In this document: piece after piece, positions 39,757-54,052 of the stretch
Numbering within the stretch: the first letter of the stretch is position 1
Layout of the letters: every line of letters starts with the position of its first letter
Source: Micromonospora sp. NBC_01740
Lineage (GTDB): Bacteria; Actinomycetota; Actinomycetes; Mycobacteriales; Micromonosporaceae
Length of the DNA: 64,000 nt
Assembly: GCF_035920365.1 (NCBI RefSeq)
Contig: NZ_CP109150.1
Location: 7,130,001 to 7,194,000, forward strand
Direction of reading: 5' to 3'
The notes under the pieces: model-generated
What the model was told of the DNA's origin: nothing
The model's input: only the letters and a program-made list of their open reading frames with translations
Databases searched by the model: none
Made by a program: the position numbers and the translations under genes

Positions 39757-39795
39757 GTCGCTCTCCAATGCCGGGGCTGTCAAGGGCCTGCCGGG

Positions 39796-39830: not shown

Positions 39831-42698
39831 TCAGGGCAGGGTCCACTTCTGGTTGGCGCCGGTGTGGCAGGTCCACAGGTGCACGGCCTGGCCGTCGGTC
39901 GGGGTGTTGCCCGAGACGTCCAGGCACTTGCCGGTCTGCGGGTTCTTCAGGGTCCCGTCCGCCTGGGCCGACCAGTTCTGGGCGCCGGTGCCGTTGCAGC
40001 CGTACAGCTGGATCTTCGTGCCGTCGGCGGACCCGCCGCCGGAGATGTCCAGGCACTTGCCCAGCGCCTTCACCGTCGAGTTCGGCGTCACCGTCCACGT
40101 CTGCGCGGCGCTGCCGTTGCAGCCGTAGATCTGGATCTGGGTGCCGTCGGCGGTGGCCGCGTTGCGTACGTCCAGGCACTTGCCGCCGAGCCCGACGACC
40201 GGGCCGGTGCGGGCCCCCGCCGAGCCGGTGGTGAAGGCGAACGTGTCCACGTCGTAGAGCGCGCCGGTGCCCGTGCCGGCGAACGTGAGGTAGAGCGTGC
40301 CGGTGCTGGCCGGCGCCCCGGAGATGCTGCCGCTGACCGTGGTGAACGCGTCCCAGGCGCCGGTGACCGGCACGGTCGCGGAGCCGAGCACGGTGCCCGT
40401 CGGCGAGCCGAGCCGCACCTGGAGGGTGCCGCCGGCGCCGGCCGAGGAGACCCGGGCGCTGAACGAGGTCGCGTTGTCGATCCGGTACGGCTCGAACGCG
40501 ATCCAGTCGCCGTTGTTGATGTCGCCGACGGTCCTGCCGCCCTCGGCGGTGCCCTTGTCGAAGGTGCCGACGCCGGAGGAGGTCTTGAAGTGCTCCGCCT
40601 GGCGCTTGCGCGGCTGGAGGGTGTGCTGCTTGTGCGTGGTCAGCCCGCCCGCGTCGGTGTACTCGGCGTCGAAGACGGCGAAGATGTTCGCCGCGTCGTC
40701 GTGTTCACCGTCGACGGGGATGGTGATCGAGCCGGAGCAGCCGTTCTTCGAGGTGATCTGGTGGCCGTGGTTGTCGTGGCCCAGCACGTACGTCATCTTG
40801 ACCTTGGTGCAGTCGATGGCGGCGTCCTCGGGGTCGGTCACCGTGATGCTGAACGGCACGGTGTCGCCGTAGCTGAACAGCTTGCCGTTGGCCGGGCTGT
40901 TGATGGTGACCGTGGGCGCGGTGTTGCCGACGCCGATCTGCACGTTCGCCGTGCCGGTCGCGCCCTGGGGGTCGCGTACGGTCAGGGTGACCTGGTAGGT
41001 GCCGTTGGCGGTGTACGTCTTGCTGGGGTTGGCCGCCGTCGAACTGGTGCCGTCGCCGAACGCCCAGGAGTAGGTGAGCGCCCCGCCCTCCGGGTCGCTG
41101 GACCCGGCCGAGGAGAAGTTCACGGTCAGCGGGGCCGCGCCGGAGGTCTTGTCGGCCGCGGCGACGGCGGTCGGCGCCCGGTTGCCGCCGGCGATGTAGT
41201 CGTAGCGGTAGAGCGCCGAGTTGGCGTCGCCGTTGAAGTAGCCGGTGCCGTAGTCGAGGATGTAGAGCGCGCCCTCGGGCCCGAACGCCATGTCCATGAT
41301 CTGCTTGCCGTTCCACGGGAACGTGTCGATGCCGCCCGGGCTGCCGTCGGCGTTGAGGTGGATCGGCTTGACCCAGCCCCGGCCGAGTTCGCCGGCGAAG
41401 AACTGCCCGTCGAAGGACTGCGGGAACTTGGTGGTGGAGTTCAGCGCGGCGTCGTAGCGGTAGACGGGGCCGCCCATCGGCGACTCGGAGCCGCCGCCGA
41501 ACTCGGGCGGGGTGCCGGCGTCGCCGGCGTACCGGATCCAGGCCGGCTTCGCCCCCGGCAGGGTGGGCAGGCCGGTGTTGCGGAACGAGTTGTTGGTCGG
41601 CCCGCCGGAGCAGTTGTACTTCGCCCCGGCGGTCCCGGCGGCGAAGTCCCACTCGGCGTACGTCTCGGTGGCGGTGTTGGTGCCGGTGCAGTACGGCCAG
41701 CCGTAGTTGCCGGGCCCGGTGACCCGGTTGAACTCCACCTGGCCACTCGGCCCCCGGGCGCTGGTGGTGCCGGCGTCCGGGCCGTAGTCGCCCACGTAGA
41801 CGATGCCGGTGGCCCGGTCCACGCTCATCCGGAACGGGTTGCGGAAGCCCATGGCGTAGATCTCGGGGCGGGTCCGTGCGTCCGAGTCGACGAACATGTT
41901 GCCCGCCGGGATCGAGTACGTGCCGTTGGCGTTCACCTTGATCCGCAGGATCTTGCCGCGCAGGTCGTTGGTGTTGGCCGCGCTGCGCTGCGCGTCGTAC
42001 GCGGGGTTGCGGTTGGTGCGCTCGTCGATGGGCGCGTACCCGGCCGAGTCGAACGGGTTGGTGTCGTCGCCGGTGGAGAGGTAGAGGTTGCCGGCGGCGT
42101 CGAAGTCGATGTCGCCGCCGACGTGGCAGCACATGCCCCGGTCGGCGGGCACGTCGAGGATGTCGACCTTGCTGCCGGTGTTGATCGTGAAGTCGGCGTT
42201 GAGGGTGAACCGGGAGAGGCGGTTGACGCCCTGCCAGGCCGAGAAGTCGGTGCCGGTCGCCGGCGCGTCGCCGGCCGGTGTGGACAGCGGCGGGGCGTAG
42301 TAGAGGTAGATGTGCCGGTTGCTGGCGAAGTTCGGGTCGGCCCCGACGCCCTGCAACCCCTCCTCGTCGTGGGTGTAGACCGGCAGCGTGCCGATCACGG
42401 AGGTGGTGCCGGCGGAGTCCGTACGCCGGACGGTGCCGTTGCGGGCGGTGTGCAGGACCGACCGGTCGGGCAGCACCGCGATCGTCATGGGCTCGCCCAC
42501 CTCGGCGACGCCCTTGGCGAGGGTGACCTGCTGGAAGTCGGTACCGACGATGGGGTGGGCCTGGGCCGGGCCGGGGCCGCCCAGCGTGGCCGGGCCGGCG
42601 CCGAGGGCGACCGTGCCGGCGGTGGCGGCCAGCAGCAGCGCCGAGGCGGCGGAGAACCGTCGTCGGAGCCGTGGGGTGGGGGCGTCCTGGGTGGACAT
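39831..42698 (-). CDS. secreted PQQ-type sugar dehydrogenase + PKD + CBM + ricin-B-lectin protein
   Basis: A 955-aa exported enzyme. Long signal region to ~48 ending AQA; a glucose/sorbosone dehydrogenase six-bladed propeller ~50-480 (ADPNFASNRHIYLYY, GRGWVKPIHLNADG, VYVGDYGPDAG); PKD domain ~505-590 (YSWAFGDGTSS); a second Ig-like region; CBM6-like ~690-815; ricin-B-lectin ~825-955. ATG 42698 behind GGAAGGGA. The upstream 53-bp element matches the one before the ROK regulator, so it is probably controlled by that repressor. Confidence 0.88.
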   Translation of the reverse strand: MSTQDAPTPRLRRRFSAASALLLAATAGTVALGAGPATLGGPGPAQAHPIVGTDFQQVTLAKGVAEVGEPMTIAVLPDRSVLHTARNGTVRRTDSAGTTSVIGTLPVYTHDEEGLQGVGADPNFASNRHIYLYYAPPLSTPAGDAPATGTDFSAWQGVNRLSRFTLNADFTINTGSKVDILDVPADRGMCCHVGGDIDFDAAGNLYLSTGDDTNPFDSAGYAPIDERTNRNPAYDAQRSAANTNDLRGKILRIKVNANGTYSIPAGNMFVDSDARTRPEIYAMGFRNPFRMSVDRATGIVYVGDYGPDAGTTSARGPSGQVEFNRVTGPGNYGWPYCTGTNTATETYAEWDFAAGTAGAKYNCSGGPTNNSFRNTGLPTLPGAKPAWIRYAGDAGTPPEFGGGSESPMGGPVYRYDAALNSTTKFPQSFDGQFFAGELGRGWVKPIHLNADGSPGGIDTFPWNGKQIMDMAFGPEGALYILDYGTGYFNGDANSALYRYDYIAGGNRAPTAVAAADKTSGAAPLTVNFSSAGSSDPEGGALTYSWAFGDGTSSTAANPSKTYTANGTYQVTLTVRDPQGATGTANVQIGVGNTAPTVTINSPANGKLFSYGDTVPFSITVTDPEDAAIDCTKVKMTYVLGHDNHGHQITSKNGCSGSITIPVDGEHDDAANIFAVFDAEYTDAGGLTTHKQHTLQPRKRQAEHFKTSSGVGTFDKGTAEGGRTVGDINNGDWIAFEPYRIDNATSFSARVSSAGAGGTLQVRLGSPTGTVLGSATVPVTGAWDAFTTVSGSISGAPASTGTLYLTFAGTGTGALYDVDTFAFTTGSAGARTGPVVGLGGKCLDVRNAATADGTQIQIYGCNGSAAQTWTVTPNSTVKALGKCLDISGGGSADGTKIQLYGCNGTGAQNWSAQADGTLKNPQTGKCLDVSGNTPTDGQAVHLWTCHTGANQKWTLP
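39837..40210. repeat. ricin-domain DNA repeat, copy 2
   Basis: Partner of 37657-38030; differences are mostly silent or clustered around variable loop positions (for example WTCNG versus YGCNG). Confidence 0.85.
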
Positions 42699-43011: not shown

Positions 43012-44079
43012 TCAATGGGGACGGTCGACGGCCTGGGCGGCGAGGGCGGTCAGGGCGGCACGGGCCTCGGCGGTCACCGGGGTGGACCCCAGGGCCGCCA
43101 GGGCGGCCTCCGCGCGTACCCGGATCATCTCCTCGATCCGCTCGCGGGCCCCGGTGCCTTCGATGATCTTCCGCAGCTCGCCGGCGCCGTCACTGTCGAG
43201 CGCCGGGTTGCCGAACAGCTCCCGCAGCCGCGCGGCCTGCGCCCGGTCGGCGGCGCCCCGGGCCAGCGCCATCATCACCGTCGGCTTGCCCTCCCGCAGG
43301 TCGTCCAGGATCGACTTGCCGGTGACCGTCGGGTCGCCGAAGACCCCCAGCACGTCGTCGCGCAGTTGGAACGCGTCGCCCAGCGGGTCGCCGAACTCGG
43401 CCAGCGCGGCCAGCAGCTCCGGCCCGGCCCCGGCCAGCGTCGCCCCGATCTGCAACGGCCGGGTGACCGTGTAGCGGGCCGCCTTCATCCGGACGACGGT
43501 CAGCGCGCTCGCCACCGACCCGTCGCCCACCCCGGAGACCAGGTCCAGGTACTCCCCCGCGATCACCTCGGTGCGCATCAGCGCGTAGACCGCGTACCCC
43601 CGGTGCACCCGCCCCGCGTCCAGGCCGCACTCGTGGAACATCTGGTCGGACCAGGCGGCGCAGAGGTCGCCGCAGAGCAGCGCGGTGTTGCGCCCGTACG
43701 CCTCGGGGTCGCCGCGCCAGGACGAGCGGGCGTGCAGGTCGGCGAAGAGCCGGTGCACCGACGGCCCGCCCCGGCGGCGGTCGCTGCCGTCCAGGATGTC
43801 GTCGTGGATCAGCGCGAACGCGTGGAACAGCTCCAACGCGGCGGCGGCCGTCACGATCGGGGCGCCGTCGGGGCCGCCCGCGCCCCGCCATCCCCAGTAG
43901 CAGAAGAGCGGGCGCAGCCGCTTGCCGCCGGCCAGCACGAACCGGTGCAGCGCGGTGAAGACGCCCCGGGGCGCGCCGTCCGGCCAGTCCCGGCCCTGCC
44001 GGTCGAGGAAGGCGGCGAGCGCGGCGTCGAACCGCGCCCGCAGCCCGCTCGTGTCGGTCGGGGCGACGACGGCGGTCAC
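43012..44079 (-). CDS. polyprenyl (isoprenyl) diphosphate synthase
   Basis: A 355-aa trans-prenyltransferase of the IspA/GGPPS family. First aspartate-rich motif HDDILDGSDRRRG, second QLRDDVLGVFGD, plus GGKRLRP near residue 52 and the KT-like step KAARYTVTRPL. It elongates FPP or GGPP-type chains; length is not predictable by eye. GTG start in a 4-bp overlap with the phosphodiesterase gene, last of the ebo-like cluster, so it likely supplies the lipid donor for the UbiA-type enzyme at 49251. Confidence 0.92.
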   Translation of the reverse strand: MTAVVAPTDTSGLRARFDAALAAFLDRQGRDWPDGAPRGVFTALHRFVLAGGKRLRPLFCYWGWRGAGGPDGAPIVTAAAALELFHAFALIHDDILDGSDRRRGGPSVHRLFADLHARSSWRGDPEAYGRNTALLCGDLCAAWSDQMFHECGLDAGRVHRGYAVYALMRTEVIAGEYLDLVSGVGDGSVASALTVVRMKAARYTVTRPLQIGATLAGAGPELLAALAEFGDPLGDAFQLRDDVLGVFGDPTVTGKSILDDLREGKPTVMMALARGAADRAQAARLRELFGNPALDSDGAGELRKIIEGTGARERIEEMIRVRAEAALAALGSTPVTAEARAALTALAAQAVDRPH

Positions 44080-45515
44080 GCCTCCTCCCCGGACGGTCCC
44101 GCCGACGCCGGGGTGGGCGACCCGGCCGACGCCGGTGCCAGCCCCGCCAGCTCCAGCAGGAGTGCCTTGACCTCGGTCGCGGCGACCCGGTCCCGCGCGG
44201 CGGACGGATCGGAGCAGAGCAGCACCGGCCCGTCCGCCGGATCGGCCGGGAGCCGGCCGTGCGACCCGCGCACCGCCCGGGCGCCGGCGTCCAGCCCCAC
44301 CACGCTCATCAGGTAGCGCATCCCGAGCTTCTTGCGCGCCAGCGCCACGGCGGCCCGCCGCTTCGCCGCCAACGGTGCGGCCGGGTCGAGAAACAGCTCC
44401 GCCGGGTCGTAACCCGGCTTGCGATGAATGTCCACCAGCCGGGCGAAGTCGGGCGCGCGGGCGTCGTCGAGCCAGTAGTAGTAGGTGAACCAGGCGTCCG
44501 GCTCGGCGACGAGCACCAGCTCCCCGGCGCGCGGGTGGTCCAGCCCGTGCGCGGCCCGGCCGTCGGCGTCGAGCACCTCGGCCACCCCGGGCAGCCCCGC
44601 GCAGAGCGCCGCCACCGCCGGCACGTCGGCCGGGTCGCGGACGTGGACGTGCGCCACCTGGTGGTCGGCCACCGCGAAGGCCCGCGAGGTCCACGGGTCG
44701 AGGTACTCCATGCCGGCCTGGGTGTGCACCCGCAGCAGCCCCTCGGCGCGCAGCAGCCGGTTGACGTCGACCGGCCGGGAGACGTCGGTGATGCCGTACT
44801 CGGAGAGCACCACCACGGTCGCGTCCCGGGCGCGGGCGGCGTCCAGCAGCGGCCCGAGCACCCCGTCCAGCTCGGCCGCCGCCGCGGCGGCCCGGGGCGA
44901 CGACGGGCCAAAGCGTTGCAGGTCGTAGTCGAGGTGCGGGACGTAGACCAGGGTCAGGTCCGGCGCGTGGTCGGCGAGGATCCGCTCGGCGGCCCGGCAG
45001 ATCCACGCCGACGACGCCAGCCCCGCGCCCGGCCCCCAGTAGCTGAACAGCGGGAAGGTGCCGAGCCGGTCGGTGAGGGCGTCGTGCAGCTCCGGCGGGT
45101 CGGTGTAGCAGTCCGGCTCCTTGCGCCCGTCCGCCCGGTAGACGGGGCGAGGGGTGACCGTCCAGTCCACGTCGGCGCCCATGGCGTACCACCAGCAGAC
45201 GTTGGCCACAGTGAAGCCCGGCTCGACCCGGCGGGCCGCCTGCCACAGCTTCTCGCCGCCGACCAGGGCGTGGTGCTGGCGCCAGAGCAGCACCTCGCCG
45301 AGGTCCCGGAAGTACCAGCCGTTGCCGACGATCCCGTGCCCGGCCGGGAGCTCCCCGGTGAGGAACGTCGACTGCACCGGGCAGGTCAGCGCGGGCAGCA
45401 CGGTGCCCAGCTCCGCGCGGAAGCCGGCGTCGGCGACCGCGCGCAGCCGGGGCATGTGCGCCAGCAGGCGCGGGGTCAGCCCCACCACGTCCAGCACCAC
45501 CAGCCGCCGACTCAT
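44076..45515 (-). CDS. alkaline phosphatase-fold nucleotide pyrophosphatase/phosphodiesterase (EboF-like role)
   Basis: A 479-aa AlkP-superfamily enzyme. N-terminal metal site VVLDVVGLTP, nucleophile Thr in LPALTCPVQSTFLTG, YVPHLDYDLQRFG, VVVLSEYGITDV and a late His (DIHRKPGYD). No signal peptide. In ebo operons an alkaline phosphatase family protein accompanies EboE, and this gene directly follows the EboE-like gene (46-bp gap, bridged by a 17-codon ORF). It may remove phosphate or pyrophosphate from the prenylated intermediate. Confidence 0.85.
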   Translation of the reverse strand: MSRRLVVLDVVGLTPRLLAHMPRLRAVADAGFRAELGTVLPALTCPVQSTFLTGELPAGHGIVGNGWYFRDLGEVLLWRQHHALVGGEKLWQAARRVEPGFTVANVCWWYAMGADVDWTVTPRPVYRADGRKEPDCYTDPPELHDALTDRLGTFPLFSYWGPGAGLASSAWICRAAERILADHAPDLTLVYVPHLDYDLQRFGPSSPRAAAAAAELDGVLGPLLDAARARDATVVVLSEYGITDVSRPVDVNRLLRAEGLLRVHTQAGMEYLDPWTSRAFAVADHQVAHVHVRDPADVPAVAALCAGLPGVAEVLDADGRAAHGLDHPRAGELVLVAEPDAWFTYYYWLDDARAPDFARLVDIHRKPGYDPAELFLDPAAPLAAKRRAAVALARKKLGMRYLMSVVGLDAGARAVRGSHGRLPADPADGPVLLCSDPSAARDRVAATEVKALLLELAGLAPASAGSPTPASAGPSGEEA

Positions 45516-45561
45516 GCCGGCACCCCCGCGCCGTGTCGACGGTTCGCTCGCTGGCGCCCGC

Positions 45562-46764
45562 TCATCGCCGTACCTCCGCCGTCGCCGGGGCCGCCCGGCC
45601 CGCCGGCGCCAGGCCCAGGGCGACCAGCTCGGCGCGGGCGAAGGCCAGCTCCGCGGCGATGCCGGCGGCCAGCTCCGCGTCGGTGCGCGGGCGCCGCGCG
45701 GCCGGCAGCACCCCCCAGGTGTACGTCTCGACGTCGAGGTGGTCGCAGCCCGCCTCCGGCCCGGCGTAGAGCGTGGCCAGCGCGGCGCGCAGCACCGGCA
45801 GGGTCGAGCCCAGCGGCGGCTCGGGCGGGGCGTGCAGCGGCACGTGGTAGTGCACCCGCCACGGGCCGGGCAGCCGCGCGGCCAGGGCGGCGTCCAGGTC
45901 GTCGGCGGCGTGGGCGGGGTCGGCAGGGTCGGCCGCCCCCGCGCAGCCTGCCGCCCGGGTCTGGTGCAGGAAGCGCGGCTCCACCCAGCGTCGCAGCGCC
46001 GGCGTCGCCTCGGCGGGCGCCTCGATGGCGGCCGAGACCTGCACCTTCACCACCGGCAGCCCGGCCGTGCGCAGCCGGCCCAGCGCCTCGGCCGGCGCCT
46101 CCCAGGCGCAGGCGAGGTGGGCGAGGTCCAGGCAGACGCCGAGCCGGTCGGTGTCCACGCCGGCCAGGGCCGCGACGGCCTGCCCGGTGCTCTCCACCAC
46201 GCAGCCCGGCTCCGGCTCGAACCCGACCCGCACGCTCCGGCCGGTCGCCCGCTCGACGGCCGCGAGACCGGCCGCGAGCTGGTCGAGCCGGTGGCGGGCG
46301 GCGTCCACGCGGGCGGCGTCCCAGGGCCGCCGCCAGGCCAGCGGCAGGGTGGAGACCGAGCCCCGGGCCGCGTCGTCGGGCAGCAGGTCGGCGAGCACCC
46401 GCGCCAGATCCAGGGTGTACGCGAGCCGCGCGGGCGTGGTCCAGTCCGGGTGGTAGACGTCGCCCTTGACCACGGGCGCCTGGAAGGCCGCGTACGGGAA
46501 GCCGTTGAGCGTGACCACCTCCAGCCCCCGGGCGGTCAGCGCGGCCCGCAGCCGGCGACGGGCGGCCGGGTCGGCGGCCAGCTCGGCGGCGACCGGGGCG
46601 GCCAGCCACAGCCCGAGGCCGAGCAGGTCGGCGCCGAGCGCCTCGCGTACGGGCACGGCGTGGGTGTCCAGCTGGCGCAGGATGCCGGCGAGGTCCTCGG
46701 CGGGGTGCACGTTGGTGCAGTAGCCGAGGTGGACGGTGTCGCCGCCGGCGTGCCGCAGCCGCAT
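45562..46764 (-). CDS. eboE: EboE-like metabolite-traffic protein (sugar isomerase-fold)
   Basis: A 400-aa TIM-barrel protein starting MRLRHAGGDTVHLGYCTNVHP; LGYCTNVHPAED, TLNGFPYAAFQ, VGFEPEPGC and VCLDLAHLACAWE are the features I associate with the EboE family. The ATG overlaps the TatD-like stop (TGATG). EboE is needed for ebo-mediated metabolite export or prenylation in cyanobacteria and algae; the reaction is not established. Confidence 0.85.
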   Translation of the reverse strand: MRLRHAGGDTVHLGYCTNVHPAEDLAGILRQLDTHAVPVREALGADLLGLGLWLAAPVAAELAADPAARRRLRAALTARGLEVVTLNGFPYAAFQAPVVKGDVYHPDWTTPARLAYTLDLARVLADLLPDDAARGSVSTLPLAWRRPWDAARVDAARHRLDQLAAGLAAVERATGRSVRVGFEPEPGCVVESTGQAVAALAGVDTDRLGVCLDLAHLACAWEAPAEALGRLRTAGLPVVKVQVSAAIEAPAEATPALRRWVEPRFLHQTRAAGCAGAADPADPAHAADDLDAALAARLPGPWRVHYHVPLHAPPEPPLGSTLPVLRAALATLYAGPEAGCDHLDVETYTWGVLPAARRPRTDAELAAGIAAELAFARAELVALGLAPAGRAAPATAEVRR

Positions 46765-47630
46765 CAGCTGCCGCCGCGCAGGATCGAGTTGCCCGCCCAG
46801 GTGCCGATCGGCGGGTCGGCGGCGGCGTGCTCCAGGTCCGTCAGGTCGAGCCGACCGGACCGGCCGTAGAACTCGACCGGGTTGCGCCACAGCACCCGGT
46901 CCACGTCGTCGTCGGTGAAGCCGGCCAGCAGCATCGCCTCCCCGGTGGCCCGGGTGAGCAGCGGATCCGAGCGCCCCCAGTCGGCCGCCGAGTTGACCAG
47001 CACCCGCTCCGTCCCGTACGCCCGCAGCAGCTCCACCATGCGCGGCGGCGACATCTTGGTGTCGGGATAGATGGAGAAGCCCAGCCAGCAGCCGGTGTCC
47101 CGGACCAGCCCCACCGTCACCTCGTTGAGGTGGTCGAGCACCACCCGGCCCGGCTCGACGCCGGACTCGGCGACCACGGCGAGGCTGCGTTCGACGCCCC
47201 GCGCCTTGTCCCGGTGCGGGGTGTGCACCAGGGCCGGCAGGTCGTGGGCCACGGCCAGGGCGAGCTGGGCGGCGAACGCCTCGTCCTCCGCCGGCGTCAT
47301 CGAGTCGTAGCCGATCTCGCCGACCGCCACCACGGCGTCCTTGTCGAGATAGCGCGGCAGCAGGTCGAGCACCGGGCGGCAGCGCGGGTCGTTGGCCTCC
47401 TTCGGGTTCAGCGCGACCGTGGCGTGGTGGCGGATCCCGAACTGCCCGGCCCGGAACGGCTCCCAGCCGACCAGCGAGTCGAAGTAGTCGGCGAAGGAGG
47501 CGGGGCTGGTGCGGGGCTGGCCGAGCCAGAACGCCGGCTCCACCACCGCCCGGACCCCGGCGGCGGCCATCCGCTCGTAGTCGTCGGTGGTCCGCGAGGT
47601 CATGTGGATGTGCGGGTCGAAGATGCGCAT
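46764..47630 (-). CDS. eboB: TatD-family metal-dependent hydrolase (EboB-like)
   Basis: A 288-aa amidohydrolase-fold protein. FDPHIHMTSRT near the start gives the HxH metal pair; VAVGEIGYDS and VHTPHRDK add the Glu and His, and VNSAADWGRSDP the Asp. It matches TatD-like proteins encoded in ebo operons. ATG overlaps the EboA stop by one base (TGATG) and its own stop overlaps the EboE start the same way. Confidence 0.85.
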   Translation of the reverse strand: MRIFDPHIHMTSRTTDDYERMAAAGVRAVVEPAFWLGQPRTSPASFADYFDSLVGWEPFRAGQFGIRHHATVALNPKEANDPRCRPVLDLLPRYLDKDAVVAVGEIGYDSMTPAEDEAFAAQLALAVAHDLPALVHTPHRDKARGVERSLAVVAESGVEPGRVVLDHLNEVTVGLVRDTGCWLGFSIYPDTKMSPPRMVELLRAYGTERVLVNSAADWGRSDPLLTRATGEAMLLAGFTDDDVDRVLWRNPVEFYGRSGRLDLTDLEHAAADPPIGTWAGNSILRGGS

Positions 47631-48232
47631 CAGGCCTCCTGGATTTCGCGCAGCCGGGTGAGCAGGTCGGTCGCGTCCGCCGGCATGGCGCGCCCGGCGG
47701 CCTGCCGCTCGGCGGCCAGCGACGCGAGCATCGCGGCGAGTTCGCCGTCGGCGCGGGCGTCGAGGTCGTGCACCACGGCCAGCGGCACGCCGGTGAAGAC
47801 GCACTTGAGCACCGCCTGCCGCCAGGCGTCCGGGTCGAGGTGCCGGGCGTACGGGCCGAGGGCGGCGGCCAGCAGCCGGGTGTCGTTGGTGCGGATCGCG
47901 TCGTGCAGCAGTGGCGTCCCGGCCGCACCGACCGGCAGCAGCGGCAGCGCCTTGAGCACGGCCCGCTTCTCGGCGGCGTCGCCCTGCCGGTAGCGGGTCT
48001 CGGCGTGGGTCGCGTGGTCGGTCGGCAGCGCGGCCAGCAGCAGGGCCCGGGCCGCCTCGTCGGCGCTCCAGCCGGGTGCCCCGGGCAGCGGTGCCCGGCC
48101 GCAGCGCCGCCCGGCGGCAGCGAAGAACCGGTCGATCGTCGCCGGTTCGGCCGCCACCCGCCGCAGCGCCGTGTCGAGCCAGTCGGGTTCGGGTACGCCC
48201 CGCAGCGCGGCCCGCAGTGAATCCGGTGTCAT
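47630..48232 (-). CDS. eboA: EboA-domain protein
   Basis: A 200-aa helical protein (MTPDSLRAAL start, WLDTALRRVAAEP, GDAAEKRAVLKALPLLPVG, AVLKCVFTGVPLAVVHDLD) that fits the EboA family. GGGAGGAGACGGG precedes the ATG. No catalytic motif. EboA is the name-giving subunit of the ebo system, here fourth in the operon. Confidence 0.85.
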   Translation of the reverse strand: MTPDSLRAALRGVPEPDWLDTALRRVAAEPATIDRFFAAAGRRCGRAPLPGAPGWSADEAARALLLAALPTDHATHAETRYRQGDAAEKRAVLKALPLLPVGAAGTPLLHDAIRTNDTRLLAAALGPYARHLDPDAWRQAVLKCVFTGVPLAVVHDLDARADGELAAMLASLAAERQAAGRAMPADATDLLTRLREIQEA

Positions 48233-48267
48233 CCCGTCTCCTCCCTCGTGCTGCCGACGTGGCCCCG

Positions 48268-49254
48268 TCACCGTTGCTGGCGTGCCGCCTCCTTCGCGGT
48301 GGCACCCGGTCCCGGGCGTGCCGCCTCCTTCGCGGCGGCACTCGTTTCGGGGCGTGCCGCCTCCTTCGCGGCGGCGCGCAGGAAGTCGAGCGAGCGGGCC
48401 GCGACGGCGGGGGCGGCGTGCGAGTGCCGGGGCAGCTCCACGGCGACCAGGCCCCGGTAGCCGGCGTCGCCCAGGGCCCGCAGCACGGGCGGGAAGTCGA
48501 TCTCCCCCGCGCCGAACTCCAGGTGCTCGTGCACGCCCCGGCGCATGTCGTCGATCTGCACGTTGACCAGGTACGCGCCGACCTCGCGTACGCACTCGGG
48601 GACCGGCCGCGGCTCCAGGCAGCGGCAGTGCCCGATGTCGAGGGTGATGCCGAAGCGGTCCGGATCGCCGAGCGCGCCGCGCAGCCGGCGCCAGCCGGCG
48701 ATGTCCTCGACCAGCATGCCCGGCTCCGGCTCGAAGCCGAGCGTCGTGCCGGCCGCCTCGGCGGCGTCGACCACCGTCGCGCAGCCGGCGACCAGCCGGT
48801 CCCAGGCGGTCTCCGGTGCGACAGCGTCGGGGCGTACGCCGGACCAGAGGGAGACGGCCTCCGCGCCCAGGTCGGCGCCGATCCGCACGGCCCGGCGCAG
48901 GAACTCGACGCGCCGCGCCGGGTCGTCGTGCAGCAGCGTCGGGGCGTGCTTGTGCCACGGGTCGAGCAGGTAACGGGCGCCGGTCTCGACGACCACGGCG
49001 AGGTCGAGCGCCGCGAGCCGGCGGGCCACGGCGGCCACCCGGCGGGCCAGCGCGGGCGCGAACGGGTCGAGGTGGTCGTGGTCCAGGGTGAGCGCGACGC
49101 CCCGGTAACCCAGGTCGGCGACGACGGCGAGCGCGTCGGTCAGCCGGTGGTTGGCGAACCCGTTGGTGCCGTAGCCGAACCGGAGCCCGCCGTCGGCCGC
49201 GCCGGCCACCACCGTGCCCCGGGGGCCCGGCGCGGGGCGGGTCGGGGCGGTCAT
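48268..49254 (-). CDS. sugar phosphate isomerase/epimerase with C-terminal 12-residue repeats
   Basis: A 328-aa XylI-like TIM barrel: GYRGVALTLDHDH, LGFEPEPGMLVED, ITLDIGHCRC and VNVQIDDMRRG show the metal-ligand layout. It differs from the 36223 enzyme and from EboE. The last ~36 residues are three copies of a 12-aa unit (AAKEAARP plus four), encoded by 36-bp DNA repeats, unlike usual family members. ATG overlaps the prenyltransferase stop by 4 bp. Probably acts on the cyclitol or sugar intermediate. Confidence 0.85.
   Translation of the reverse strand: MTAPTRPAPGPRGTVVAGAADGGLRFGYGTNGFANHRLTDALAVVADLGYRGVALTLDHDHLDPFAPALARRVAAVARRLAALDLAVVVETGARYLLDPWHKHAPTLLHDDPARRVEFLRRAVRIGADLGAEAVSLWSGVRPDAVAPETAWDRLVAGCATVVDAAEAAGTTLGFEPEPGMLVEDIAGWRRLRGALGDPDRFGITLDIGHCRCLEPRPVPECVREVGAYLVNVQIDDMRRGVHEHLEFGAGEIDFPPVLRALGDAGYRGLVAVELPRHSHAAPAVAARSLDFLRAAAKEAARPETSAAAKEAARPGPGATAKEAARQQR
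48281..48381. repeat. three 36-bp tandem repeats
   Basis: CGTGCCGCCTCCTTCGCGG recurs at 48281, 48317 and 48353, exactly 36 bp apart, in frame within the isomerase gene tail. In-frame unit length suggests slippage-generated variable protein repeats. Confidence 0.85.
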
Positions 49255-50105
49255 GTCGGGGAGATCCTTCGGGCGAGCCGGCCGCCGAGCGGCGCGGCCG
49301 CCGCCACCGCCAGCCCCAGCAGCCCGGCCCCGGCGCGCGCGGTGAGGGCGCCCTGCAACGCGGGCAGCCCGGTGATGCCGGCTCCCACCGCCGCCCGCAC
49401 CCGGCCGGCGCGGGGGTCGGCTACCGCCCGGGCCTGGGCCGCGCCGTAGCGGGCCACGTACCAGCCGGCCAGCAGCGCCGGCAGCGCGGCCCGCTCGGGG
49501 CGGGGTCGGACGACGGCGCCCGCCGCGACCAGGGCGGTGCCGGCGAGGGTACGCAGCGGCAGCGCGGCGTCGGCGCCGGTGACCTCGCGGCGGGAGAGCG
49601 CGGTGACCGTCCACGTGTGCGCGGCCACGGTGACCGCCGCCGGCACCGCCCGCAGCGCCCGTCCGCCGGTGGCGCCGAGCAGCACGTCCAGCCCTCGGCA
49701 GGCGGCCATCACGGCCGGCCCGGCGGCCGTCGACTTCGCCGCCAGGTCGTACCCCCAGACGGCGGCGGCGAGCGGGACCGCGACCGTCGCGGCGCGCCGG
49801 CCACCGGCGGCGGTGGCCAGCGCGACCCCGGCGGCGGTGAGCCCGGCGGCGAGGCCGAGCGCGGCCCCGGGGGCCACCCGGCCGCTGGGGATGGGCCGCT
49901 CGGGGCGTTCGACGGCGTCCAGCCGGCGGTCGGCCCAGTCGTTGGCGGCCATCCCCGCCCAGTAGAGCAGGACGGACGCGGCGGCCAGCGCGGGCGTACG
50001 CCGCCCGAGCGTGCCGGCGGCCGCCGCCCCGGCGACGACGTCCCCGGGCACCGAGAGCGCGGCCGGCGCCCGGACCAGTTCGGCGAGGTCAGCGAGGCGC
50101 GGCAT
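49251..50105 (-). CDS. UbiA-type prenyltransferase (SCO3242/EboC-like)
   Basis: A 284-aa polytopic membrane prenyltransferase with about eight hydrophobic helices. The first Asp motif is ANDWADRRLDAVERPERPIP, a clear NDxxDxxxD variant. The second is WGYDLAAKST. It transfers a polyprenyl chain to an acceptor, as EboC is thought to do. Overlaps the inositol-phosphate-synthase-like gene by 17 bp and the isomerase by 4 bp. Confidence 0.9.
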   Translation of the reverse strand: MPRLADLAELVRAPAALSVPGDVVAGAAAAGTLGRRTPALAAASVLLYWAGMAANDWADRRLDAVERPERPIPSGRVAPGAALGLAAGLTAAGVALATAAGGRRAATVAVPLAAAVWGYDLAAKSTAAGPAVMAACRGLDVLLGATGGRALRAVPAAVTVAAHTWTVTALSRREVTGADAALPLRTLAGTALVAAGAVVRPRPERAALPALLAGWYVARYGAAQARAVADPRAGRVRAAVGAGITGLPALQGALTARAGAGLLGLAVAAAAPLGGRLARRISPT

Positions 50106-51249
50106 CGGTGCCTCCCGCGTGCAGCCGGTGGGCGAAGCCGCACAGTCGGGTCCACTGGTCGGCCAGCGAGTGGGTGGGCGTGCCGAGCGGGTCCTTGAAG
50201 AAGAAGGCGAGGTCGGTCAGGGGGCCGGCGTGGCCGGCGGCGTGCGCGGCGGCGGTGAGCCGGGCCAGGTCGAGCACGAGGGGCGCGGCCAGGGCGGAGT
50301 CGCAGCCGTGCCAGGTGAACTCCATCCGCATCCCGGTGCCGAGGAACCCGGCGAACGTGATCAGGTCCCAGGCGGTCTTGAAGTCGCCCAGCGCCTCGAC
50401 GTACTCGATGCGGGTGCCGCCCTGCGGCAGGTGGCCGAGGGTCTCGCCGAGCACGCGCTGCTTGCTCTCCACCTTGGCCGCGTTGGCCGCCGGGTCGGCG
50501 AGGGTGGCGCCGTCGCCGCCGCCGAGCAGGTTGACCCCGGACCAGGAGCGCACCGCCAGGTGCCGCATCGCGAACATCGGCGCGAGCACGGACTTGACCA
50601 GCGTCTCCCCCGTCTTGCCGTCGTGCCCGGCGTACGGGATCCCGCGCTCGGCGGCCAGCGCCACCAGGGCCGGCAGCCGCAGCCCGGTGGACGGGGTGAA
50701 GTCGACGTACGGGCAGCCCGCCCGCACCGCCGCGTACGCGTAGAGGGAGCTGGGTGGCAGCACCTCGTCGGGGCCGGCGAGCGCGGCGGCCAGCGCGCCC
50801 GGGTCGGCGTGGCCCGGGTGCGGGCGGGCGGCGGGTTCGGTGGCCGAGACGTTGACCACCACCACCCGGTCCAGCCCGTGCCGGCGGCGGAAGTCGGTGA
50901 GGTCGCGTACGGTCGCGGCGGCCCGGTCCGCCTGGCTGCCGCCGGCGGGGGCCGGACGCAGCTCGCGTTCGACGGCGGCCAGCTCGTCGGGGAGGGTGGC
51001 GACCAGCCGGCCGGGCAGCACGCCGGCGGCGGCCAGGGTCTCGGCCCGCTTCGCCAGCGGAGTGGTGACGACGTCGTGCCCGCCGAGGAACAGGTCGGTG
51101 AAGGCCGGCAGGGCGGGCCCGCGCAGGTCGGGCAGCTCGGTGACGCAGCCGGTCGGGCCGGTGAGCCCGGACCGCAGGGCGAGCGCCCCCACGATGCTGG
51201 TGGTCGCGACCGAGCCGCGTGCTCCCACCAGCCAGACACCCGTACGCAT
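50089..51249 (-). CDS. myo-inositol-1-phosphate synthase-like enzyme
   Basis: A 386-aa protein of the inositol-3-phosphate synthase family. The N-terminal NAD motif is VGARGSVATTSIVG; NVSATEPAARP, YAGHDGKTGETLVKS, NLLGGGDG and DPLGTPTHSL lie at catalytic-domain positions. Family members convert glucose-6-phosphate to inositol phosphate. It heads the ebo-like operon, in the place where classical ebo clusters have EboD, a dehydroquinate-synthase-like cyclase. AAGGAGCACC precedes the ATG. Confidence 0.85.
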   Translation of the reverse strand: MRTGVWLVGARGSVATTSIVGALALRSGLTGPTGCVTELPDLRGPALPAFTDLFLGGHDVVTTPLAKRAETLAAAGVLPGRLVATLPDELAAVERELRPAPAGGSQADRAAATVRDLTDFRRRHGLDRVVVVNVSATEPAARPHPGHADPGALAAALAGPDEVLPPSSLYAYAAVRAGCPYVDFTPSTGLRLPALVALAAERGIPYAGHDGKTGETLVKSVLAPMFAMRHLAVRSWSGVNLLGGGDGATLADPAANAAKVESKQRVLGETLGHLPQGGTRIEYVEALGDFKTAWDLITFAGFLGTGMRMEFTWHGCDSALAAPLVLDLARLTAAAHAAGHAGPLTDLAFFFKDPLGTPTHSLADQWTRLCGFAHRLHAGGTDAAPR

Positions 51250-51737: not shown

Positions 51738-52976
51738 TCAGGCGGCGACCGTGGCCAGGGCCGGCTCCACCTCGGTCCACGAGGAGCCGAGCTCCGCCGA
51801 CCGGGTCACCGCGTCCAGCACCAGCTGGACCTGCAACCCGTCGACGAAGGAGGGCGCCGGGTCGACTCCGGTGGCGACCGCCTCGACGAAGTCCCGCGCC
51901 TGGTGGGTGAAGGAGTGCTCGTAGCCGATGAGGTGGCCGGGCGGCCACCACGCGGACATGTACGGGTGCTCCCCCTCGGTCACCAGGATGCGGCTGAAAC
52001 CCTGCTCGGCGGCGGGTCGCGTCGCGTCGTAGAACTCCAGCTCGTTGAGGCGCTCCAGGTCGAAGGCCACCGTGCCCAGCGAGCCGTTGATCTCCACCCG
52101 GAGGGCGTTCTTGCGTCCCGTGGCGAAGCGGCTCGCCTCGTACGTCGCCAGCACGCCGCCGTCGAGGCGGGCCACGAAGACCGCCGCGTCGTCGACGGTG
52201 ACCGCCCCGGTGGCCGGGCGGTGGCCGTCGGCGCCGTTGCCGTCGGCCGCCGCCCCGTCCACCGTCGCCGCCAGCCCGCTCGACCCGGCCGGCAGCGGCC
52301 GTTCCTTGACGAACGTCTCGGTGACCGCGCTGACCCCGGTGATCCGCCGGCCGGTGACGTACTGGGTCAGGTCGATGATGTGCGCGCCGATGTCGCCGAG
52401 CGCGCCGGAGCCGGCCTTGTCCCGCTGCAACCGCCACACCAGGGGGAACTGCGGGTCCACGATCCAGTCCTGCAGGTACGTCGCCCGGACGTGCCGGATC
52501 ACCCCGAGCCGCCCGTCGGCGACGAGCTGGCGCATCATCGCGACCGCCGGCACCCGCCGGTAGTTGAACCCGCACATCGACCGCACCCCGGCGGCCTGCG
52601 CGGTGACCGCCGCGGCGGCCATCGCCCGGGCCTCGGAGACCGTGTTGGCCAACGGCTTCTCGCACAGCACGTGCTTGCCGGCGGCCAGCGCGGCGAGGGC
52701 GATCTCGGCGTGGCTGTCCCCGGGCGTGCAGACGTCGACCACGTCGATGTCGTCCCGGGCGATCAGGTCGCGCCAGTCGGTCGTGTGCGCGTCCCAGCCG
52801 AGCCGGTCGGCAGCGTCGGCCACCTTCCCGGCGTCCCGGCCGCAGATCAGCGACATCCGGGCCCGCGCCGGCAGGTCGAACACCCGGTTCACGGTGCGCC
52901 ACGCCTGCGAGTGCGCGGCGCCCATGAACGCGTAGCCGACCATGCCGACCCGCAGTTCTCTGTCTGTCGTGGACAA
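51738..52976 (-). CDS. Gfo/Idh/MocA-family oxidoreductase
   Basis: A 412-aa NAD(P)-dependent sugar dehydrogenase. N-terminal Rossmann domain with VGMVGYAFMGAAHSQAW and EKPLANTVSEA (catalytic Lys of EKP); C-terminal alpha/beta domain with GDIGAHIIDL supplying the conserved Asp/His. TTG start after GGGGGAGACCC. It follows the solute-binding protein by 20 bp and probably oxidises the imported sugar. Confidence 0.92.
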   Translation of the reverse strand: MSTTDRELRVGMVGYAFMGAAHSQAWRTVNRVFDLPARARMSLICGRDAGKVADAADRLGWDAHTTDWRDLIARDDIDVVDVCTPGDSHAEIALAALAAGKHVLCEKPLANTVSEARAMAAAAVTAQAAGVRSMCGFNYRRVPAVAMMRQLVADGRLGVIRHVRATYLQDWIVDPQFPLVWRLQRDKAGSGALGDIGAHIIDLTQYVTGRRITGVSAVTETFVKERPLPAGSSGLAATVDGAAADGNGADGHRPATGAVTVDDAAVFVARLDGGVLATYEASRFATGRKNALRVEINGSLGTVAFDLERLNELEFYDATRPAAEQGFSRILVTEGEHPYMSAWWPPGHLIGYEHSFTHQARDFVEAVATGVDPAPSFVDGLQVQLVLDAVTRSAELGSSWTEVEPALATVAA

Positions 52977-52996
52977 GGTGGGTCTCCCCCCGTGTA

Positions 52997-54052
52997 TCAG
53001 AACCCGAGCTTGAGGTAGCTGCCCGCGTTCTCCTTGGTGATCGTCTCGGAGGCGAGGATGATCTCCTTGGGCACCTGGAGTTCCACCAGGTCGGACATGC
53101 CCTTGCCCTGGCCGATCAGCCGGGCCAGGGAGATGGCCGAGGAGGCCATCGAGGGGCTGTAGGTCACCGTCGCCTTCAGCACCGTGTTGTCCGCCTGGAT
53201 GTCCTCCATCGCCTTCTTCGAGCCGGCGCCCCCGACCATGAAGAACTCCTTGCGGCCGCTCTGGTTGACCGCGGCCAGCACGCCGATGCCCTGGTCGTCG
53301 TCGTGGTTCCAGAGCGCGTCGATCTTCGGCAGGGCCTGGAGCAGCTGCGCCGCCTCCTGCTGCCCCGAGTCGGCCGTGAACCGGGCCGCCCGGCGGTTGG
53401 CGACCTTGAAGCCGCTCGCCGTCAGGGTGTCGACGAAGCCCTTCGACCGCTCCTGGGTCAGCTCCAGCTCGTCCATGCCGGCGATCTCGCCGATCACCGG
53501 GTTGCTGACGCCCTTGGCCTTGAACTGCTCGATCATGTAGGTGGCGGCGGCCACGCCCATGCCGTAGTTGTCACCCTTGATCTGGAGCCGGTAGGCCCGC
53601 GCGTCGGGGAACGCCCGGTCCAGGTTGACCACCGGGACGCCGGCCTTCATCGCCTCCAGCCCGAACGCGTTGAGCTCCTTGCCGTCGTGCGGCAGCAGCA
53701 CGATCACGTCCGGCTTCTGCGAGATCAGCGTGGACAGCGCCGCCCGCTGGGCCGCCGCGTCCGCGCCGGCCTCGACCGACTTGAACTCCACGTCGGAGTA
53801 CGCCCCGGCCTGCGCCTTGGCGTTGTTGGTGATGGCGGCGATCCAGCCGTGGTCGGCGGCCGGCGCGGAGAAGCCGATGACGACCCGTTTGCCGGGCTCA
53901 TTGTTGCCGCCCGGCGCGGCCGCCGCCTTGGTCTGCGCCTCGGTCGGCTTGGTCTCGTTGCTGGTGCAGCCGGCGAGCAGCACGCCGGCGCCGACGGCGG
54001 CCCCGCCGAAGAGCAGCCGGCGGCGCGACATGTCGCGACTGTGCTGGGTCAT
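52997..54052 (-). CDS. ABC sugar-binding lipoprotein (ribose/galactose type)
   Basis: A 351-aa periplasmic-binding-protein-like domain 4 lipoprotein. SRRRLLFGG suggests Tat export and LAGC is the lipobox with Cys at ~29. Mature part: VVIGFSAPAADHGWIAAI, DVIVLLPHDGKEL, NLDRAFP, ALWNHDDDQGIG, all usual ligand-site positions. AGGAGG before the ATG. Substrate-binding part of the importer encoded upstream. Confidence 0.93.
   Translation of the reverse strand: MTQHSRDMSRRRLLFGGAAVGAGVLLAGCTSNETKPTEAQTKAAAAPGGNNEPGKRVVIGFSAPAADHGWIAAITNNAKAQAGAYSDVEFKSVEAGADAAAQRAALSTLISQKPDVIVLLPHDGKELNAFGLEAMKAGVPVVNLDRAFPDARAYRLQIKGDNYGMGVAAATYMIEQFKAKGVSNPVIGEIAGMDELELTQERSKGFVDTLTASGFKVANRRAARFTADSGQQEAAQLLQALPKIDALWNHDDDQGIGVLAAVNQSGRKEFFMVGGAGSKKAMEDIQADNTVLKATVTYSPSMASSAISLARLIGQGKGMSDLVELQVPKEIILASETITKENAGSYLKLGF

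Follow-up and report, generated by a model that had tools for sequence, protein, structure and literature searches.

An ebo-type operon of Micromonospora and other Actinobacteria in which an inositol-3-phosphate synthase very probably stands in for EboD

Introduction

The ebo operon is known from many phyla as well as from the plastids of algae, and its chemistry is unsolved. In the passages of the two papers on which we draw for it (Yurchenko 2016, PMC5133447; Klicki 2018, PMC6282210), the operon consists of EboA to EboF; the first places EboD with 3-dehydroquinate synthase and proposes an isoprenoid-cyclitol product, and the second proposes a cyclitol lipid carrier and, from deletions in Nostoc, gives ebo a role in metabolite export. 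Here we analyze an ebo-type operon of Micromonospora sp. NBC_01740, located on a stretch of 64,000 nucleotides (the window, G000:C1:7130001-7194000) of a 7.3-Mb genome consisting of one contig, in which the presumed cyclase is an inositol-3-phosphate synthase (MIPS). A sequence-only reading of the window had proposed a prenylated cyclitol carrier as a product that it did not know to be described; such a product was in print by 2016 (PMC5133447) and again by 2018 (PMC6282210), as far as the passages cited go. A description of MIPS in an ebo locus was not found among the papers listed in searches of the open-access PMC library. Two Saccharomonospora ebo loci are figured in PMC9235831, whose passages cited here do not state the cyclase.

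Four described or related systems come close. Like the EboA-F operon (PMC5133447, PMC6282210, in the passages cited), the window locus combines the EboA domain, EboB, EboE, EboF, and a UbiA prenyltransferase in one operon, for which an isoprenoid-cyclitol product has been proposed. It differs in having MIPS and a xylose-isomerase-like TIM barrel (here TIM1) and no EboD, in a UbiA of the SCO3242 family rather than EboC, in its gene order, and in the glucose/sorbosone dehydrogenase (GSDH) neighbor found in about half of the MIPS-type loci. EboG-type ebo operons (Deinococcus L184/L187; L028) also have EboB, EboE, UbiA, and EboF, but they carry EboD and EboG, have neither MIPS nor TIM1, and no EboA was found in them. 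In the BE-40644 pathway of Actinoplanes a cyclase-made cyclitol is likewise prenylated by a UbiA enzyme, whereas that cyclase is EEVS and its UbiA is described as distinct from EboC (both per the passages of PMC5133447 cited). Finally, two archaeal ether-lipid enzymes, digeranylgeranylglyceryl phosphate (DGGGP) synthase and Archaeoglobus fulgidus Ino1, are the nearest relatives of known structure for the UbiA profile and MIPS, respectively, but the counterparts in the window lie in a bacterial operon with ebo genes.

Organization and spread of the operon

Positions 43012-51249 of the window hold eight genes on the minus strand, in this order:

50089..51249, minus strand: MIPS, inositol-3-phosphate synthase of the Archaeoglobus Ino1 type, proposed EboD stand-in (PF07994 168 bits, PF01658 100 bits)
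49251..50105, minus strand: UbiA, membrane prenyltransferase of the SCO3242 family, EboC counterpart (PF01040; NF045897 365 bits)
48268..49254, minus strand: TIM1, xylose-isomerase-like TIM barrel, distant EboE paralogue (PF01261 129 bits)
47630..48232, minus strand: EboA (NF035938 159 bits, cut-off 50)
46764..47630, minus strand: EboB, TatD-like metallo-hydrolase (PF01026 43 bits; AF_1765, 3guw, E 5e-27)
45562..46764, minus strand: EboE, TIM-barrel "metabolite traffic protein" (NF035939 408 bits, cut-off 250; PF01261)
44076..45515, minus strand: EboF-like phosphohydrolase of the alkaline-phosphatase fold (PF01663 216 bits)
43012..44079, minus strand: IDS, predicted short-chain isoprenyl diphosphate synthase, GTG start at 44079 (PF00348 151 bits), lineage-specific

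The EboE model and the EboA domain model, both above their cut-offs, together with the superfamily matches of EboB and EboF, bear out the earlier description of these genes as an ebo-like operon. That reading also counted eight minus-strand genes, as we do; its remark that nearly all overlap went too far, as five of the seven junctions overlap (MIPS/UbiA by 17 nucleotides, UbiA/TIM1 and EboF/IDS by 4, EboA/EboB and EboB/EboE by 1) and two do not (TIM1-EboA, 35 nucleotides apart, and EboE-EboF, 46). Short repeats are visible by eye where TIM1 ends (AAKEAARP) and in the spacer ahead of eboA (window ~48170-48300).

EboE was found in 19 of 396 genomes of the phylum, at 20 loci. Because 17 of these loci, the window included, have the same seven genes in the order MIPS-UbiA-TIM1-EboA-B-E-F, the operon is not a chance arrangement, and its first seven genes, from MIPS to EboF, are a conserved actinobacterial operon. 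TIM1 and EboA share one frame in L040. The other three loci are a second copy in G128 without MIPS (L025), an EboD-type locus (L028), and a disrupted locus with no MIPS in the stretch fetched (L042). Across the 396 genomes, MIPS matches of 560-628 bits come from 17 loci, every one an ebo locus, and the next match scores 329 bits; UbiA matches over the SCO3242 cut-off come from 18 loci in 17 genomes, again all of them ebo loci.

The MIPS-type operon is a widespread variant of the ebo operon, which we have not found described. A second sample consisted of 131 genomes of the genus of G128, taken as Streptomyces since their loci fall among named Streptomyces in the EboE tree. With the MIPS subfamily called at E 1e-100, 93 of them have MIPS, 96 have EboE, and 35 have neither, and all 93 MIPS genomes have EboE. 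MIPS occupies 98 loci in these genomes, and at 81 of them EboE lies on the same contig no more than 9 kb away. The remaining 17 include 15 on contigs that gave no match to EboE; the two that were fetched are a cut contig (G442, L174) and a genuine orphan (G441, L173). The orphan (G441:C1:2478500-2497500) is an ebo-subfamily MIPS beside two genes of the ScyD/ScyE family, sister to the MIPS of L180 (support 99). Three genomes have EboE without MIPS, one of them at a contig end (G444), the others (G408 and G460) with a MIPS-less type.

This MIPS-less paralogue type of Streptomyces, UbiA-TIM1-EboA-B-E-F, was seen in L025, L072, L075, L081, L086, L090, L096, L099, L171, L179, and others, often with genes for an FAD oxidoreductase, a PF00459 phosphatase, a P450, and a gamma-glutamyltransferase. 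A PF00459 protein accompanies 10 of 35 MIPS-less loci and none of 74 with MIPS. It is no evidence of inositol chemistry, as the three such proteins scanned score best on the HisN model and below all cut-offs. In L177 (G456:C78), two ebo sets are interleaved in tandem (TIM1-EboA-B-E-EboA-B-E-F-F).

MIPS as the probable replacement of EboD

The proposal that MIPS may replace EboD came with a call for a survey of whether the two exclude each other in ebo loci. In 123 EboE loci they never occur together: 77 have MIPS, 11 have EboD, and 35 have neither. Eighty of these loci are the best 80 matches to an EboE alignment of 10 MIPS-type rows and 1 EboD-type row, which skews the proportions toward the MIPS type, and some loci under genome handles may duplicate species listed by name. 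With the EboD model NF004852, one of 18 genomes gave a match over the cut-off, the EboD-type G381 (564 bits); 16 of the 17 MIPS-type genomes have matches of at most 199 bits, and G318 (82% complete) has none. A search for an EboD homologue elsewhere in the window's genome gave no match over the model cut-off (best 167 bits, cut-off 333), and no EboD was found near the operon. Ten annotated plasmid ebo loci of Proteobacteria, Deinococcota, and Bacteroidota all have a "3-dehydroquinate synthase" (EboD), with no annotated inositol-3-phosphate synthase within 8 kb. Together with a Gemmatimonadota cluster of the EboD lineage that carries MIPS, described below, these results support the proposed replacement well. 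We consider it very probable that MIPS takes the place of EboD in the operon, and TIM1 probably accompanies MIPS in this exchange. The two cyclases had been taken for sugar-phosphate cyclases by family; they are not of one family, as MIPS belongs to PF07994/PF01658 and EboD is classed with 3-dehydroquinate synthase (PMC5133447), and the replacement would therefore be by an unrelated enzyme.

The best structural match of the operon MIPS is A. fulgidus Ino1 (1u1i, 229 bits, E 1e-66), the next kind listed having E 1e-44, and its best-matching named relatives are from Micromonospora. Both MIPS domains, PF07994 and PF01658, score over their cut-offs. Four lysines, K259, K263, K291, and K352, which we take to be the catalytic set, are invariant in an alignment of 14 rows, and two of them align with the lysine positions that are alanine in 3qvw and 3qvx. 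As the mycothiol-type INO1 model TIGR03450 gives only 24 bits (cut-off 638), the enzyme is, judged from its sequence, not of the mycothiol type. The same genome has a second, separate MIPS at 1.44 Mb (G000:C1:1444932).

The prenyl side

UbiA is indeed of the UbiA prenyltransferase family, as had been noted, but it scores as the "SCO3242 family prenyltransferase" (NF045897, 365 bits, cut-off 260) and not as EboC (equivalog model NF035940, 128 bits, cut-off 250). Several UbiA proteins of EboD-type loci likewise fall below the NF035940 cut-off (89-110 bits). Residues N55, D56, D59, and D63 as well as Y119, D120, and K124 are invariant in 13 rows, and in the PDB the profile matches DGGGP synthase best (6m31, E 7e-12). 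DGGGP synthase prenylates a phosphorylated polyol.

The last gene had been seen as a dedicated polyprenyl synthase. Its closest structures are those of the short-chain farnesyl diphosphate (FPP) synthase 8f8f and geranylgeranyl diphosphate (GGPP) synthase 3lk5, and none of the NCBIfam chain-length models reached its cut-off. For prenyl synthases, the chain-length rule looks to an aromatic residue five positions before DDxxD. In 23 loci an IDS gene comes after eboF in the same orientation, namely, in the window, in one genome of the same genus, and in 21 of 26 named Micromonosporaceae loci; none was found in this position outside Micromonosporaceae and the window's genus among the loci examined. 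IDS therefore is not part of the conserved core and, by its sequence relationships, appears to be a short-chain (C15-C20) enzyme added in Micromonosporaceae.

TIM barrels, EboA, and the hydrolases

In TIM1, the residues E175, D206, Q233, and E273 are invariant in 17 rows, and in EboE the residues E183, D213, Q242, and E346 are invariant in 11 rows. The two proteins thus have the same invariant E-D-Q-E set, and hhalign relates them at 96%; they are distant paralogues. The invariant glutamine of this set sits opposite a histidine of MJ1311 in a pairwise alignment. The AlphaFold model of TIM1 (mean pLDDT 83.7) is closest to sugar 3-epimerases, with the UlaE epimerase 3cqj as the best match (TM 0.71/0.83).

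The EboA model is all-helical (pLDDT 97.9) and has no significant Foldseek match in the PDB. The narrower family model NF035937 is not reached by EboA (79 bits, cut-off 320), in contrast to the domain model NF035938. Actinobacterial EboA proteins fused to a xylose-isomerase-like domain have been reported from iterated searches (Yurchenko 2016, PMC5133447, in the passage cited), and such fusions fit the adjacency of TIM1 and EboA. EboF has weak matches to phosphonoacetate hydrolase and to nucleotide pyrophosphatases/phosphodiesterases. The annotated TatD and phosphodiesterase proteins of EboD-type loci match the same hidden Markov models (PF01026 and PF01663) as EboB and EboF of the window.

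A mixed operon in Gemmatimonadota

Plasmid 2 of Gemmatirosa kalamazoonensis (L186) carries EboG-EboB-EboF-UbiA-MIPS-TIM1 with a divergent EboE; neither EboD nor EboA was found in the 17 kb fetched. Its MIPS scores 410 bits and branches basally, without a resolved placement, among the ebo-subfamily MIPS proteins, and its EboG is recognized at E 5e-14. EboE lies inside the clade of EboD-type EboE proteins (branch support 100) and EboB groups with EboB proteins of the EboG type (100); a MIPS-type placement of this EboB was rejected by the approximately unbiased (AU) test (p 2e-32). UbiA scores 169 bits on the SCO3242 model and 136 bits on the EboC model, both below the cut-off. EboB, EboE, EboF, and EboG of one lineage thus seem, from these sequence comparisons, to work with ring and prenyl enzymes nearer to the other lineage.

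Propellers beside the operon

A gene for a candidate partner lies next to the operon in the window:

39831..42698, minus strand: GSDH, glucose/sorbosone dehydrogenase propeller with PKD, CBM6, and ricin domains, probable partner (PF07995 119 bits, cut-off 25)

It starts with ATG at ~42698, and a signal peptide was judged by eye. Of 82 MIPS-type loci, 39 have a GSDH domain no more than 4 kb from the operon, compared with 0 of 12 EboD-type loci and 1 of 36 with neither cyclase (L054, on a cut contig); each of these three totals includes one locus fetched twice. All but one of the 39 have GSDH on the same strand, 20 upstream and 19 downstream. Upstream genes are mostly from Streptomycetaceae and also from Pseudonocardiaceae, Jiangellaceae, and three Micromonosporaceae; downstream genes are mostly from Micromonosporaceae. 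In 11 of 16 MIPS-type genomes GSDH is within 4 kb of the operon, where we estimate that chance would give about 1%, based on 79 GSDH matches in 17 genomes searched. What is new here is that the GSDH propeller recurs beside MIPS-type operons and not beside EboD-type ones. In the window strain, the secreted GSDH next door is likely the partner of the operon.

In four plasmid loci (L180, L203, L205, and L206) a propeller of the ScyD/ScyE family lies ahead of MIPS, with a multicopper oxidase nearby, and further links were seen in a plasmid cluster (L195, ~13 kb from the operon) and in S. melanogenes (L109). As a general partner this family was rejected, since it occurs in 6 of the 131 Streptomyces-assigned genomes, at nine places, none on a contig stretch near an EboE match; one of these genomes, G403, is a draft of 740 contigs and so uninformative, and a single-protein search gave five genomes. 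Two of the nine places adjoin an orphan MIPS (G441, L173).

Product and role

We favor, with somewhat better than even confidence, the reading that these genes are a biosynthetic operon of the ebo type, that the ring made elsewhere by EboD comes here from MIPS together with TIM1, and that the product is a prenylated inositol-derived lipid. MIPS would convert glucose 6-phosphate into inositol 3-phosphate. This could then be tailored by TIM1 and EboE, which are TIM barrels of an epimerase/dehydratase kind with a metal site, and by the phosphohydrolase EboF. UbiA, which most resembles a prenyltransferase acting on a phosphorylated polyol, would attach a C15-C20 chain, which may come from IDS in Micromonosporaceae and from house-keeping synthases elsewhere. 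The membrane-bound lipid could support handing small molecules to the outer face of the membrane or oxidizing them there, which we liken to the ebo role known from Nostoc genetics. The lipid likely serves extracytoplasmic processing of metabolites. With a MIPS whose key residues are intact, the ring, so far guessed to be a sedoheptulose-derived cyclitol, becomes a testable one, inositol, in organisms that are easily engineered (93 of the 131 Streptomyces-assigned genomes carry the MIPS type). The exchange of the cyclase points to the constant part of the system, and the propeller partners hint at the site where its product acts.

Several observations weigh against this reading. Neither cyclase is in view in 35 of the EboE loci (in 12 the contig breaks off before MIPS would be reached, 20 are of the paralogue type, and the rest are L042, L177, and L194), and G408 and G460 carry solely the MIPS-less type. 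Two loci, L071 (Herbidospora) and L101 (Thermomonospora), have MIPS-EboA-EboB-EboE without UbiA and EboF, L071 also without TIM1, and therefore prenylation may not be obligatory. The mixed operon is a single case; its EboF also groups with the EboG-type lineage, but not decisively (AU p 0.125), and its UbiA is intermediate between UbiA proteins of the EboD type and those of Actinobacteria, with the shorter path to the MIPS type. This part of the argument depends on rooting, as midpoint rooting joins it to the actinobacterial proteins (100/100), and in the unrooted tree the other split is equally supported (99/99). In Bacteroidetes and Planctomycetes, a few ebo clusters that lack EboD have been ascribed to deletion or draft assemblies, in a passage of PMC5133447 that does not mention MIPS. 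An EboC homologue farnesylated quinoline aromatics in vitro, and the acceptors named in the part of PMC9235831 cited do not include cyclitols.

The last of these results also fits a redox-active product: the two TIM barrels would dehydrate the inositol ring toward a phenol that, once prenylated, could act as a quinone-like membrane electron acceptor for secreted dehydrogenases and oxidases. The frequent same-strand GSDH neighbors, the ScyD/ScyE genes with a multicopper oxidase in the four plasmid loci, a pyrroloquinoline quinone (PQQ) dehydrogenase beside an EboD-type ebo cluster in Salipiger, and a weak match of TIM1 to the inosose dehydratase model (21 bits) all agree with it. The operon itself, however, has no oxidase or dehydrogenase, and in Nostoc the ebo mutants hold the monomer in the cytoplasm and a scyE mutant has it in the periplasm as well (PMC6282210, in the passage cited), which favors traffic; we think a redox-active product unlikely. 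It is slightly less probable that the operon MIPS subfamily makes another cyclitol phosphate, from a different sugar or with a different ring size, like the five-membered-ring synthase 6k96. That enzyme, of the same superfamily, is among the PDB matches of the operon MIPS (E 2e-10) and the subfamily is divergent, but Ino1 is by far the best match and its four lysines are kept. Less probable again, by a little, is that the operon MIPS merely adds to the inositol-phosphate supply for phosphatidylinositol or mycothiol and that the ebo genes use something else. Inositol phosphate is a common metabolite and ebo paralogue loci without MIPS exist; however, the genome already has its separate MIPS, the operon enzyme scores far below the cut-off of the mycothiol model, and its subfamily is almost confined to genomes and loci with EboE.

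Beyond the favored reading of a prenylated inositol-derived lipid, one could imagine a general system in which the head-group module (cyclase, prenyltransferase, and TIM1) of a prenylated-cyclitol lipid is swapped as a unit, EboD type against MIPS type, on a constant EboB-E-F core, and the lipid gives a redox or hand-over service to secreted propellers (GSDH, ScyD/ScyE). Most Streptomyces would carry it. We regard this generalization as speculative and rather improbable.

Other neighboring genes

Adjoining the GSDH gene, window positions 37633-39783 encode a protein with ThuA and 3-keto-disaccharide-hydrolase domains as well as CBM6 and ricin domains, presumably as in 3-keto-sugar pathways. 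Upstream of the operon, at 51738-54052, are genes for a Gfo/Idh/MocA oxidoreductase (levoglucosan-dehydrogenase-like, below the cut-off) and a sugar-binding protein, which are present upstream in most Micromonospora loci too. In Salipiger sp. CCB-MM3 (plasmid locus L188, 13693-15840), the PQQ-dependent dehydrogenase gene comes right after the EboD-type ebo cluster. The Streptomyces plasmid cluster L195 (NZ_CP024990.1 5000-54900) is a type II polyketide cluster that contains a complete MIPS-ebo operon, the ScyD/ScyE gene, and glutamine synthetase, amidase, and adenylosuccinate-lyase-like genes; we take it to resemble diazofluorene clusters. A related type II polyketide cluster has a full-length eboE with no other annotated ebo gene nearby (L196; L194 8989-10167, that is, NZ_CP108489.1 128760-129938), hinting that EboE may be client-specific.

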